Source: a virus
DNA: 43,157 nucleotides
Reading direction: 5' to 3' (one strand)
Virus record (IMG/VR): IMGVR_UViG_3300027743_000016
Coordinates: 1-43,157 of that record
Part shown: positions 37,309 to 39,622 of the stretch, one piece after another
Layout of the letters: each line of letters begins with the position of its first letter
Position numbering within the stretch: the first letter of the stretch is position 1
Made by a program: the position numbers and the translations under genes
The notes under the pieces: model-generated
The model's database searches: none
The model's input: only the letters and a program-made list of their open reading frames with translations
Told to the model about the DNA's origin: nothing

Positions 37309-37572
37309 CTACTTACCCTCCAGTTCGTCGCGGCCGAGCAGGTCGAGCGCCTGGGACCAGGCCCCGCGGGCGACCCACACCAGGTGTTCGGCCCGTTCGC
37401 CGACGACCCAGGGGGCCACCTTCGCCGAGTGGTTACGGCGCTTGGTCACCAGGCCCTTGAAGCTCGATGCGGCCTTCTGCACCTCGACCACCTGGGTGGC
37501 CAGCTTCACCGTCAGCCGGACGTAGCGTTGCGCCTTGGGCAGCTTCACGTTGAGTGCGTATGCGTTGGTCAT
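37309..37572 (-). CDS. RYV-family protein, copy 2, leaderless candidate
   Basis: ATG at 37572 exactly 6 nt after the CGTCTAA of element F; no Shine-Dalgarno. 87 residues. Paralogous to 39336-39587: shared pattern KL....RYV....L......VQ.AA...K.L.TKR, then W.V...... LV..AR.A...ALD.LGRD. The fold is probably mixed helix and strand. Function unknown. Both paralogs follow leaderless elements. Confidence 0.75.
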   Translation of the reverse strand: MTNAYALNVKLPKAQRYVRLTVKLATQVVEVQKAASSFKGLVTKRRNHSAKVAPWVVGERAEHLVWVARGAWSQALDLLGRDELEGK

Positions 37573-37578
37573 GTTCAG

Positions 37579-37607
37579 TTAGACGGACCCAGCGATGGGT
37601 TAGTTCC
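37579..37607 (-). promoter_or_regulatory. Repeated promoter/operator element F (leaderless type)
   Basis: Leftward: GGAAC, 17 bp with core CCCATCGCTGGG, CGTCTAA, then CTGAAC and ATG. The core on the opposite strand is exactly CCCAGCGATGGG, the form also seen in element K. Confidence 0.8.
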
Positions 37608-37627
37608 ATCGCCAGGTCTAGGCCGGT

Positions 37628-37921
37628 CTAGGCCGCGGCGGGCGGCGGCACCACCACCCGGCGGGCGGTCAGCATCCGCACCAGGTCTTCGATGGACAGC
37701 TGGCGCTTGATCCGCTCGACCTGGGCGTTGCTGGCGCGGCCGCTGCGGCTGTTGTAGGCGGCCCACAGCGTCGCCAGGTGGTCGTGGTAGGCGTCGGCCC
37801 GCTCACCCGTGAGCGAGGTCGCGGTCAGGCCGCTGTCGGTGACGGTGACGGACACCGCGCCGGTTGCGAGGGCCAGGGCGTTGGCGAAGGCTTGCAGGTC
37901 GTTGGCGTTCACGTTGCTCAT
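37628..37921 (-). CDS. Unknown helical protein, 97 residues
   Basis: ATG at 37921 with AGGAG (TCTAGGAGATACGAACATG). N-terminal helix DLQAFANALALATGA, a strand VSVTVTDSGLTATSL, then a long helix (AYHDHLATLWAAYNSRSGRA) and a C-terminal Pro/Ala tail. No motif recognised. Driven by element 37941-37969. Confidence 0.7.
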   Translation of the reverse strand: MSNVNANDLQAFANALALATGAVSVTVTDSGLTATSLTGERADAYHDHLATLWAAYNSRSGRASNAQVERIKRQLSIEDLVRMLTARRVVVPPPAAA

Positions 37922-37940
37922 GTTCGTATCTCCTAGAACC

Positions 37941-37969
37941 TTAGACGGACCCAGCGGTAGGTTAGTTTC
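37941..37969 (-). promoter_or_regulatory. Repeated promoter/operator element G
   Basis: Leftward: GAAAC (one change from GGAAC), 17 bp with CCTACCGCTGGG, CGTCTAA. The AAACCC of the consensus is TAACCT here, so the upstream gene stops early (…ATRN) instead of reading through to the tail. Confidence 0.7.
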
Positions 37970-38237
37970 GGGTCGCCCAGGCAGCGATGTCGGCCTGGGT
38001 CGCGGCCTGTTTCCGCTCCCAGAAGGCGCGGATGCCGCTGGCGACGTTGACGTGGTGGTCGAGGTCGAGCAGGGCTTCGCGCTTACTGCGCCGCCACTCG
38101 CCTCCGACCGATGGGGCCTGGCCGTCGTGCCAGCGCCAGCCGTCGGCCGTCTGTGTGACCCAGTAGCGGTCGTTCACGATGTACTCGCCAGAGTTCACCC
38201 GGCGACTCGTCAGCTTCAGCCCTAGTAGCTTGGTCAT
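37962..38237 (-). CDS. GWRW-family protein, copy 2, leaderless candidate
   Basis: ATG at 38237 lies 6 nt after the CGTCTAA of element H, without a Shine-Dalgarno. 91 residues. Contains GWRW, then SVGGEWRRSKREALLDLDHH. The gene at 39126 has GWRW, then SVGGEWRSTRREAVLDLEAY. Beta then helix; likely a small binding domain. This copy has an extra C-terminal helix. Function unknown. Confidence 0.75.
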   Translation of the reverse strand: MTKLLGLKLTSRRVNSGEYIVNDRYWVTQTADGWRWHDGQAPSVGGEWRRSKREALLDLDHHVNVASGIRAFWERKQAATQADIAAWATRN

Positions 38238-38243
38238 ATCAGG

Positions 38244-38272
38244 TTAGACGGACCCAGCGGTGGGTTTGTTCC
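38244..38272 (-). promoter_or_regulatory. Repeated promoter/operator element H (leaderless type)
   Basis: Leftward: GGAAC, 17 bp with CCCACCGCTGGG, CGTCTAA, then CCTGAT and ATG (38237). The element also encodes the NKPTAGSV tail of the upstream peptidase-like protein. Confidence 0.85.
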
Positions 38273-38687
38273 CGACCACCCAGGCGCGCTTGACGCGCTG
38301 CCCGGCGCGCTTGAACCGGGCCAGGGGCAGCGGGTAGACCGACTGGTTGTCGGCGACCTCGACCTCGCGCAGGAGGTTGACCCGGACGACCACGTAGTGG
38401 CCGGTGACGTTGACCAGGTAGCGGCCGGGCTCCTGGCGGGCGGCCCAGGCCCGCAGCGTGCCCGTCGAGTCGTACATGTGCTGGCGGGCCAGGTGCAGGC
38501 CCAGGGCTATGCCCGCGGTCACCAGGTCCATGTGGTGGACCGCGCGCACGGCGGGCTTGCCCGAGGCCTTGCGGATGGCCGCGGCCGTCGCCTGGGTGTC
38601 CAGGCCGGTCAGGATGGCCAGCGCGCCGGGGCCGCAGTAGCGGTTGCCGCGGCTGCCGCCGATGGCCGGGTGCAGGTCGGGGATCAC
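38244..38687 (-). CDS. C39/papain-like cysteine peptidase fold, NKPTAGSV tail
   Basis: GTG at 38687 overlaps the upstream TGA; 147 residues. Active-site candidates in papain/C39 order: Cys18 in NRYCGPGALAILTG, His97 in VTGHYVVV, Asp113 in VADNQ. Gln/Asn before the Cys is not evident, but Asn15 is close. Phage members of this clan may be proteases, deamidases or amidases. It could act on host proteins or counter a defence; not assigned. Its C-terminus GNKPTAGSV comes from element H. Confidence 0.65.
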   Translation of the reverse strand: MIPDLHPAIGGSRGNRYCGPGALAILTGLDTQATAAAIRKASGKPAVRAVHHMDLVTAGIALGLHLARQHMYDSTGTLRAWAARQEPGRYLVNVTGHYVVVRVNLLREVEVADNQSVYPLPLARFKRAGQRVKRAWVVGNKPTAGSV

Positions 38688-38959
38688 AGCGCACCGCCCT
38701 TGTAGACGCCCTGGAGCTGGTAGCGCCAGTTGATGACGTTGCCGATGTCCGGCAGGGTCTGTGGCGGCACGTCCACCTCCAGCTGCGCGGCGGGTGAGCC
38801 GTAGCTGACAAACTTGGTGTCGCCAAACTCCGACGACCCGAAGTCGACGTTGCGGTAGACGGCGATGCCGTCGCCGCGCGCCAGCCACCGGTTGACGATG
38901 ACGGTGGCCCCCACCGGGTCAATCAGGGCGCGGATCTCATCGAGTGTGTAGTGGTTCAT
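38684..38959 (-). CDS. Unknown protein, 91 residues
   Basis: ATG at 38959 with GAGGAAGG about 8 nt upstream; a TTG at 38977 is a weaker start. The ribosome site is in the loop and stem of a small hairpin (AGCCTT-GAGG-AAGGCT), which may tune translation. Sequence: helix YTLDEIRALIDPVGATVIVN, then strands. GTGA overlap with the peptidase-like gene. Function unknown. Confidence 0.7.
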   Translation of the reverse strand: MNHYTLDEIRALIDPVGATVIVNRWLARGDGIAVYRNVDFGSSEFGDTKFVSYGSPAAQLEVDVPPQTLPDIGNVINWRYQLQGVYKGGAL

Positions 38960-38984
38960 GGTCGTAGCCTTCCTCAAGGCTGGG

Positions 38985-39104
38985 TTACAGGCTCTGCAGC
39001 CACGCGATGAGCGCAGCGGCGTGCGGGCGGGCCTTCGCGGGCTGGCCGACGGCGAGAAACGCGAAGACCTTGGCGATGTGCGTCGAAGCTGTCTGTCTGT
39101 CCAT
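38985..39104 (-). CDS. 39-residue helical peptide
   Basis: ATG at 39104 with leader GAGGGAGACAGAACA. Sequence starts MDRQTASTHIAKVFAFLAVG and ends AALIAWLQSL; two amphipathic helices around GQPAKARPH. Below common size cut-offs, but the promoter element I and its standard leader point directly at this start. Confidence 0.7.
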   Translation of the reverse strand: MDRQTASTHIAKVFAFLAVGQPAKARPHAAALIAWLQSL

Positions 39105-39125
39105 TGTTCTGTCTCCCTCGATTAC

Positions 39126-39154
39126 TTAGACGGACCCAGCGGTGGGTTTGTTCC
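39126..39154 (-). promoter_or_regulatory. Repeated promoter/operator element I
   Basis: Leftward: GGAAC, 17 bp with CCCACCGCTGGG, CGTCTAA, then a leader with GAGGGAGACAGAACA. Also encodes the NKPTAGSV tail of the upstream GWRW-family protein. Confidence 0.85.
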
Positions 39155-39326
39155 GGGTCGCCAGGTAGGCCTCCAGGTCGAGGACCGCCTCGCGCCGGGT
39201 GCTGCGCCATTCCCCTCCGACCGAGGCGTCCCCGTAGAGGGACCAGCGCCAGCCGGACGTGTGGCGCTCCACTAGGCAGCCGTCGGCGTGATAGGTGCCT
39301 GCGGAGAGCTTGTGCAATGTGATCAT
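39126..39326 (-). CDS. GWRW-family protein, copy 1, NKPTAGSV tail
   Basis: ATG at 39326 with AGGAG 6 nt upstream; an ATG at 39332 is too close to the ribosome site. 66 residues. Shares GWRW..., SVGGEWR and REA[VL]LDL with 37962-38237. Ends RNKPTAGSV inside element I. The parallel end ...ATRN* of the other paralog, truncated by element G, indicates that gene and element were duplicated together. Confidence 0.75.
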   Translation of the reverse strand: MITLHKLSAGTYHADGCLVERHTSGWRWSLYGDASVGGEWRSTRREAVLDLEAYLATRNKPTAGSV

Positions 39327-39335
39327 GGTCATCTC

Positions 39336-39587
39336 CTACTGGCCGTCGCGGCCGAGCACTTCGTCAAGAGCCACCGTCGCCGCCAGCCGCGCCGTGTGGA
39401 CAAGGGTCAATCCGGCGTTGGTCACCGTCCACCCATGCACCAGCCGTCGGTGCCCGTGCAGGCGCTTGGTGTTCAAGGTCTTGTAGGTCCGCGCCGCGCG
39501 CTGCACCGACGTGGCCAGCGAGTCGAGCCTCGCGCTCACGGTCACGTAGCGTTCGGTGCTGAGTAGCTTCACAGTCGTCTTGGTCAT
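39336..39587 (-). CDS. RYV-family protein, copy 1, leaderless candidate
   Basis: ATG at 39587, 6 nt after the CGTCTAA of element J, without a ribosome site. 83 residues; starts MTKTTVKLLSTERYVTVSAR and ends ALDEVLGRDGQ. Paralog of 37309-37572 (see there). Its TAG lies within the ribosome site of the next gene, so the downstream gene may be coupled to it. Function unknown. Confidence 0.75.
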   Translation of the reverse strand: MTKTTVKLLSTERYVTVSARLDSLATSVQRAARTYKTLNTKRLHGHRRLVHGWTVTNAGLTLVHTARLAATVALDEVLGRDGQ

Positions 39588-39593
39588 GGTTGA

Positions 39594-39622
39594 TTAGACG
39601 GAACCCAGCGTTGGGATGTTCC
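39594..39622 (-). promoter_or_regulatory. Repeated promoter/operator element J (leaderless type)
   Basis: Leftward: GGAAC, 17 bp with CCCAACGCTGGG, CGTCTAA, then TCAACC and ATG. The base on one side of the core has changed (CCCAACGC) while the arms CCCA/TGGG stay. Confidence 0.8.

Follow-up and report, generated by a model that had tools for sequence, protein, structure and literature searches.

The window analysed here is the complete IMG/VR virus record IMGVR_UViG_3300027743_000016, a phage assembled from metagenomic DNA (43,157 bp, 70% G+C, with a terminal direct repeat of 127 bp). The subject is a set of ten promoter-like elements in this window, each situated 5' of a leftward gene. Its genes include those for a terminase, a major capsid protein and a portal, the last of which can be aligned to an annotated portal from a phage. 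An Erf annealing protein, an exonuclease and a primase-helicase are also encoded; neither an integrase match nor a tRNA was found in the window. The leftward block, from 34 to 40.4 kb, is composed of small genes, for few of which a family is known.

Repeated elements of the leftward block

Ten elements were read directly from the sequence. Eight copies have the form GGAAC-N17-CGT(C/A), the ninth is GAAAC-N17-CGTC, and the tenth, the most upstream, is of sigma-70 type. The first nine resemble promoters of extracytoplasmic function (ECF) sigma factors, and their -10 side is CGTCTAA, once CGTATAC. When the element pattern is searched with <=3 mismatches, 6 matches are found in the window vs 0 in 100 shuffles. 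A palindrome, CCCAnCGnTGGG, occupies the spacer between the -35 and -10 boxes. In 3 copies it is displaced by 1 nucleotide (nt), the distance from GGAAC to CGT being unchanged; this fixed promoter spacing with a sliding palindrome points to two overlapping signals, a promoter with rigid geometry and a palindrome whose position is less constrained. A previous sequence-only reading had described the element as one promoter sequence with a "-10-like box". The repetition holds, but that reading missed that palindrome and promoter are separate signals, and also the ECF-like class of the box, CGTCTAA being a poor -10 for sigma-70.

Table 1. Elements and associated genes of the leftward block and of the divergent regulator region (SD, Shine-Dalgarno sequence; aa, amino acids; HTH, helix-turn-helix)
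Feature	Position	Strand	Description	Basis or remark
Element, predicted leaderless type	39594..39622	-	GGAAC-N17-CGTCTAA, palindrome CCCAACGCTGGG	direct reading
Element, predicted leaderless type	38244..38272	-	TAA doubles as stop codon of the upstream gene	direct reading
Element, predicted leaderless type	37579..37607	-		direct reading
Element	35121..35149	-	predicted 15-nt SD leader GAGGGAGACAGACAC	register
Element	35976..36004	-	predicted 15-nt SD leader; palindrome 1 nt nearer the -10, GGAAC-CGTC spacing kept	
Element	36610..36638	-	predicted 15-nt SD leader; -10 CGTATAC(T) fits both ECF and sigma-70 terms	
Element	37138..37166	-	predicted 15-nt SD leader; TAA ends the gene whose product terminates in NKPTAGSV	
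Element	37941..37969	-	predicted 13-nt SD leader AGGAGATACGAAC; -35 is GAAAC	
Element	39126..39154	-	predicted 15-nt SD leader; TAA is the stop of gene 39126-39326 (...NKPTAGSV)	
Element, first (most upstream) leftward promoter	40379..40408	-	sigma-70-like TTGAAC-N18-TATACT, palindrome CCCAGCGATGGG	
Candidate leaderless gene 1	39336..39587	-	83 aa, no assigned function; paralogue of 37309-37572 (43% identity)	
Candidate leaderless gene 2	37962..38237	-	91 aa, no assigned function; paralogue of SD-led 39126-39326	
Candidate leaderless gene 3	37309..37572	-	87 aa, no assigned function	
Regulator promoter	40439..40476	+	TTGACA-N18-TAGACT, ATG after a further 8 nt (near-leaderless)	divergent
XRE-type HTH regulator	40477..40761	+	94 aa; may bind the palindrome	family matches, predicted fold
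Conserved small gene	40758..41021	+	directly 3' of the regulator	

The three elements 37138-37166, 38244-38272 and 39126-39154 also encode the last codons, NKPTAGSV, of the three upstream genes, whose stop is the TAA of the -10. This arrangement resembles the outcome of a spreading promoter cassette that became fused to gene ends.

Translation starts behind the elements

As stated in the sequence-only reading, with correct coordinates and sequences, three copies place an ATG exactly 6 nt after the -10-like box. Read on the minus strand they are GGAACTAACCCATCGCTGGGTCCGTCTAA-CTGAAC-ATGACCAAC for the copy at 37607, ...GTCTAA-CCTGAT-ATGACCAAG for the copy at 38272 and ...GTCTAA-TCAACC-ATGACCAAG for the copy at 39622. 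The open reading frames concerned (87, 91 and 83 aa) have no in-frame ATG, GTG or TTG upstream of these ATGs. In the other seven copies 19-21 nt separate the -10 from the ATG and this gap contains an SD sequence: GGGAGACAG or GGAGACAG in six copies, as had been read before, and AGGAGATACG, which is also usable, in the copy at 37969. The claimed lack of a ribosome site before the three ATGs agrees with the duplex energy computed for anti-SD ACCUCC over the 20 nt before the ATG, which is -3.1 kcal/mol in the three short copies vs -7.3 to -8.7 kcal/mol in the seven others. An SD-like match (-5.8 kcal/mol or better) was found for 7 of the 8 other starts checked, the weak one being 35406, and among promoter-proximal genes the SD-less starts are restricted to the three short-gap copies. 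The probability that an ATG stands at one given offset in 3 of 10 copies is p ~4e-5, for a local ATG frequency of 0.7%.

Two further observations agree with leaderless translation. The gene starting at 38237 has an SD-led paralogue, starting at 39326, inside an operon, which fits leaderless starts being found only directly behind a promoter. In the sister phage G013, gene 41961(-) follows a strong sigma-70 promoter, again with a gap of 6 nt (CATAAT-CATCAC-ATGACC). Short gaps are also present at the G013 regulator gene (AACACT followed by 7 nt, then GTG) and at the homologue of gene 40758 in the sister phage G005 (CACACT followed by 7 nt). The starts of the three short-gap genes are, on this sequence evidence, very probably leaderless.

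Some observations count against this conclusion. Many copies of the element are recent duplicates, so that they do not amount to ten independent tests, and no homologue of the three genes was found in the sister phages. Moreover a GTG located 5 or 8 codons downstream is conserved in two of the three genes, and the paralogues are conserved from VKL on (GTGAAGCT in both), as if the true starts were these GTGs (codon 9 of 37309-37572 and codon 6 of 39336-39587). We regard such starts as improbable: the GTGs are not preceded by an SD, the third gene has no GTG, ATG or TTG until codon 14 yet shows the same 6-nt gap, and the common offset of the three ATGs has the low probability given above. The predicted structure of the protein of gene 39336-39587 is of low confidence (67.7).

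Homologous genes starting at 34565 in the window and at 29737 in G005 are separated by only 11-12 nt from an upstream -10-like box that adjoins a palindrome (34565-34600 (-) and L020:9704-9739, respectively), and very short leaders may thus be common in this group of phages.

Promoter class, spacer palindrome and regulator

ECF promoters are characterized by AAC at -35 and CGT at -10 (PMC8103513). Those of EcfG/SigT read GGAAC-N16-CGTT (PMC4287350; PMC7083833) and those of Corynebacterium GGAAC-N17-18-cGTT (PMC10012870). With a GGAAC-type -35 and a CGT(C/T)-type -10 separated by 16-18 nt as definition, the eight GGAAC copies and the GAAAC copy all fall in this class; each relative has a single GGAAC-N17-CGT(C/A), against 8 in the window. 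If TTGACA/TATAAT-like hexamers 16-18 nt apart are taken instead, only copy 40379-40408 fits. Indeed, read in sigma-70 terms, CGTCTAA gives TCTAAn, which has no A-11 and, in most of the nine ECF-like copies, no T-7; the best sigma-70 match reaches 6-8/12 in these nine, 9/12 in 40379-40408 and 10-11/12 in three sister phages. No match to Sigma70_r2 or r4_2 was found in the window; a phage-encoded sigma factor was rejected on this result, and an ECF sigma of the host is most likely.

The start sites were predicted with CGTC at -13 to -10, as numbered from a mapped start site (PMC3397946), and GGAAN at -35 to -31, as for GGAAT/GTAAC-type boxes (PMC11588781). In this register the predicted +1 is the A of the ATG in all three short copies, which supports the earlier suggestion that the ATG position is tuned to the start of transcription. 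In the six other ECF-like copies it would be a purine (G or A), followed by a leader of 15 nt, once 13, opening with the SD. The centre of the palindrome would lie at -20.5 to -22.5.

Three sister phages from IMG/VR (G005, G012 and G013), with terminases 77-84% and major capsid proteins 92-97% identical to those of the window and the same gene neighbourhoods, carry promoters of the form TTGACA-N17-19-TAnnnT, which enclose a palindrome identical or related to that of the window. It reads CCCAGCGCTGGG, and in G013 it is mostly reduced to the half-site CCCAACG; one such promoter is also present in the fragment G007. Compared with these, both half-sites of the window copies depart from sigma-70 towards the ECF consensus. 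Given the promoters of the three sisters and the one window copy that is still sigma-70-like, we infer a change in the direction from sigma-70 to ECF. The lineage may have moved its leftward early regulon from the primary sigma to a host ECF stress sigma, the half-sites being rewritten round an unchanged operator and the promoter spreading gene by gene, with starts at +1 or behind a 13-15-nt SD leader; we give this history about an even chance. A search of IMG/VR for GGAAC-palindrome elements returned the full element only in the near-identical contig G002, so that the ECF-like form has to date been seen in a single lineage.

The same comparison with the sisters, which use sigma-70 round the same or a related palindrome, also favours a different view of the promoter. 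The leaderless starts would be real, and the promoter a weak sigma-70 one (TnGAAC-N18/19-TCTAAn) requiring an activator bound to the palindrome, as in MerR-type promoters with a long spacer. Its spacer is 18-19 nt in sigma-70 terms, the most upstream copy is TTGAAC-N18-TATACT and the copy at 36638 retains TATACT. This view does not explain the loss of A-11 in 8 of 9 copies and the absence of T-7 in most (6-8/12, vs 10-11/12 in relatives), nor the shift of both half-sites towards the ECF consensus; the constancy of GGAAC-N17-CGT while the palindrome slides is also unexpected if the palindrome sets the geometry. We find it rather unlikely.

The palindrome 5' of each gene and a large virion-type protein (1906 aa) could alternatively suggest that the elements act at the RNA level, as hairpins or as sites where a polycistronic message is processed, or that they are N4-like hairpin promoters of a virion RNA polymerase. 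N4 promoter hairpins are centred near -12, unlike the palindrome here. The stem is broken in the copy at 35149 (C against A), G013 retains the left half CCCAACG only, TTGACA and TATACT flank the palindrome in relatives, and no motif B of single-subunit RNA polymerases was found in the large frames. A Pfam RNA_pol search of the window gave no match, the positive control being likewise without match. Promoters of a virion or single-subunit RNA polymerase were rejected because no motif B was found and the palindrome geometry was wrong, and an RNA hairpin or known RNA family on the broken stem, the half-site of G013 and the lack of an Rfam match; we attribute a very small probability to this group of explanations.

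A candidate binder of the palindrome is encoded divergently, at 40477. The protein matches Pfam HTH_31 weakly (E=1.7e-5, below the curated cut-off) and PHROG repressors. Its model has an XRE fold (pLDDT, the predicted local distance difference test score, 86.9), with C.AhdI, C.BclI, ClgR and lambda repressor as best structural matches, none below E 0.001. An HTH regulator gene thus adjoins the candidate operators, as in XRE repressor-operator systems, and homologues are conserved in two sisters, G012 and G013 (47-53% identity). Since the gene was found in these two and not in G005, the 40477 protein is retained only as the likely binder. The homologue of the next gene, 40758-41021, stands alone in G005 behind a palindrome promoter. 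An imperfect palindrome, CCTAGCGATGGC, overlaps the ATG of the regulator (40469-40480) and is a possible autoregulatory site.

Taken together, the ten elements would be repressible promoters of leftward, probably early, genes. Nine would be ECF-type promoters (GGAAC/GAAAC at -35 to -31, CGTC/CGTA at -13 to -10) whose spacer holds the operator CCCAnCGnTGGG, the tenth and most upstream being sigma-70-like. The host's RNA polymerase, most likely carrying an ECF sigma of the host, would initiate on the seventh nt past CGTCTAA. This nt would be the A of the ATG in three genes, giving a leaderless mRNA, and in six genes the ATG would lie 13-15 nt downstream of +1, with room for the SD and its spacer only. 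A repressor, probably the divergent XRE-type protein, would bind the palindrome and block the promoter. In this model, which we consider moderately probable as a whole, we infer from sequence the start sites, the use of an ECF sigma, repression, the identity of the repressor and the early timing. Several observations fit it less well: TATACT is kept in two copies and TCTAAT in the copy at 39622, so that weak or activated sigma-70 use is possible; N17 before CGTC exceeds the usual EcfG spacing by 1 nt; and G005 keeps the palindromes although no regulator gene was found in it.

The wider relationships of the phage give no host call. The INPHARED search returned no DNA match to the window; terminase and portal each match one distant record, and the major capsid is 25-36% identical to that of phages whose hosts are mixed. 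Alignment of the terminase against bacterial genomes (84,980 species) found no relative. The hint in the sequence-only reading at Actinomycetota or Deinococcota received no support. The near relatives G002 and G009 have the primase-helicase gene (1502-3661), and it has no match in G005, G012 or G013, which suggests that the replication module was replaced.

Outside the family, the palindrome is found within promoter-like stretches of other phages. TTGACA-N0-4-CCCAnCGnTGGGT is present in 51 IMG/VR stretches; a single control palindrome, similar in composition, gave 7. Among 37 distinct matches outside the family, a -10 hexamer stands at exactly 17 nt in 10, most other positions having 0 and the maximum being 3. 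These counts and this register suggest that unrelated phages have a family of promoters with a CCCAnCGnTGGGT-type palindrome. Neither 40477 nor 40758 was found to have a homologue near the outside-family matches, and bacterial genomes yielded one match, adjoining a TetR-type gene. In the IMG/VR loci L075, L078, L086, L088, L089, L090, L100, L104 and L114, a ACCCAnCGnTGGGT-like palindrome accompanies TTGACA, and the -10 lies at 17 nt except in L088, where it lies at 18. These loci belong to unrelated phage contigs of 45-63% G+C, are over-represented relative to the one control palindrome and to off-register positions, and no publication on such promoters was found. One of them, L090:1347-1375 in the distant phage G014 (42,205 bp), in which no shared structural genes were detected, reads TTGACA-GTATCCCAGCGCTGGGT-TATTCT-CTCTTC-ATG, with a 6-nt gap of leaderless type.

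Relation to known promoters, leaderless genes and operators

In the literature searched, we found no match to CCCAnCGnTGGG as a phage operator and no paper on phage early genes under ECF-type promoters. The nine window promoters share with those of ECF (group IV) sigma factors (E. coli RpoE, EcfG/SigT, C. glutamicum SigE/SigH) the GGAAC -35, the CGTC/CGTT-type -10 and matching spacing, and in C. glutamicum such promoters are known at distance 0 (one) and 1 (one) from the start codon (PMC10012870). They differ in that a phage carries nine of them as near-repeats, the spacer of each holding a candidate operator palindrome, and in having no known cognate sigma. If the assignment is true, expression of the phage would be tied to the stress state of its host.

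The early promoters of the sisters are alike in their same or related spacer palindrome and gene neighbourhoods; they are TTGACA/TAnnnT promoters with mostly longer leaders and one leaderless example, whereas those of the window are ECF-like. This comparison would, if true, illustrate a simple way for a regulon to switch sigma class and retain its operator.

Leaderless mRNAs, such as that of lambda cI from PRM and those of actinobacterial and Deinococcus genes, have a 5'-terminal AUG, no SD and a -10 located 6-7 nt before the ATG. The three window genes are similar in their predicted 5'-terminal AUG, lack of SD and close -10; they differ in being small leftward genes lying beside 13-15-nt SD-led genes served by the same repeated promoter. 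The element set is therefore a natural paired comparison of leaderless vs minimally led starts behind near-identical promoters.

Dispersed phage operators are represented by the L5 stoperators, the phiC31 CIR sites and the lambda operators in promoters. As in these three phages, one motif is found at many promoters of the window together with a divergent regulator gene; unlike theirs, the motif CCCAnCGnTGGG is placed in the -35/-10 spacer, as a candidate operator recognized from sequence alone.

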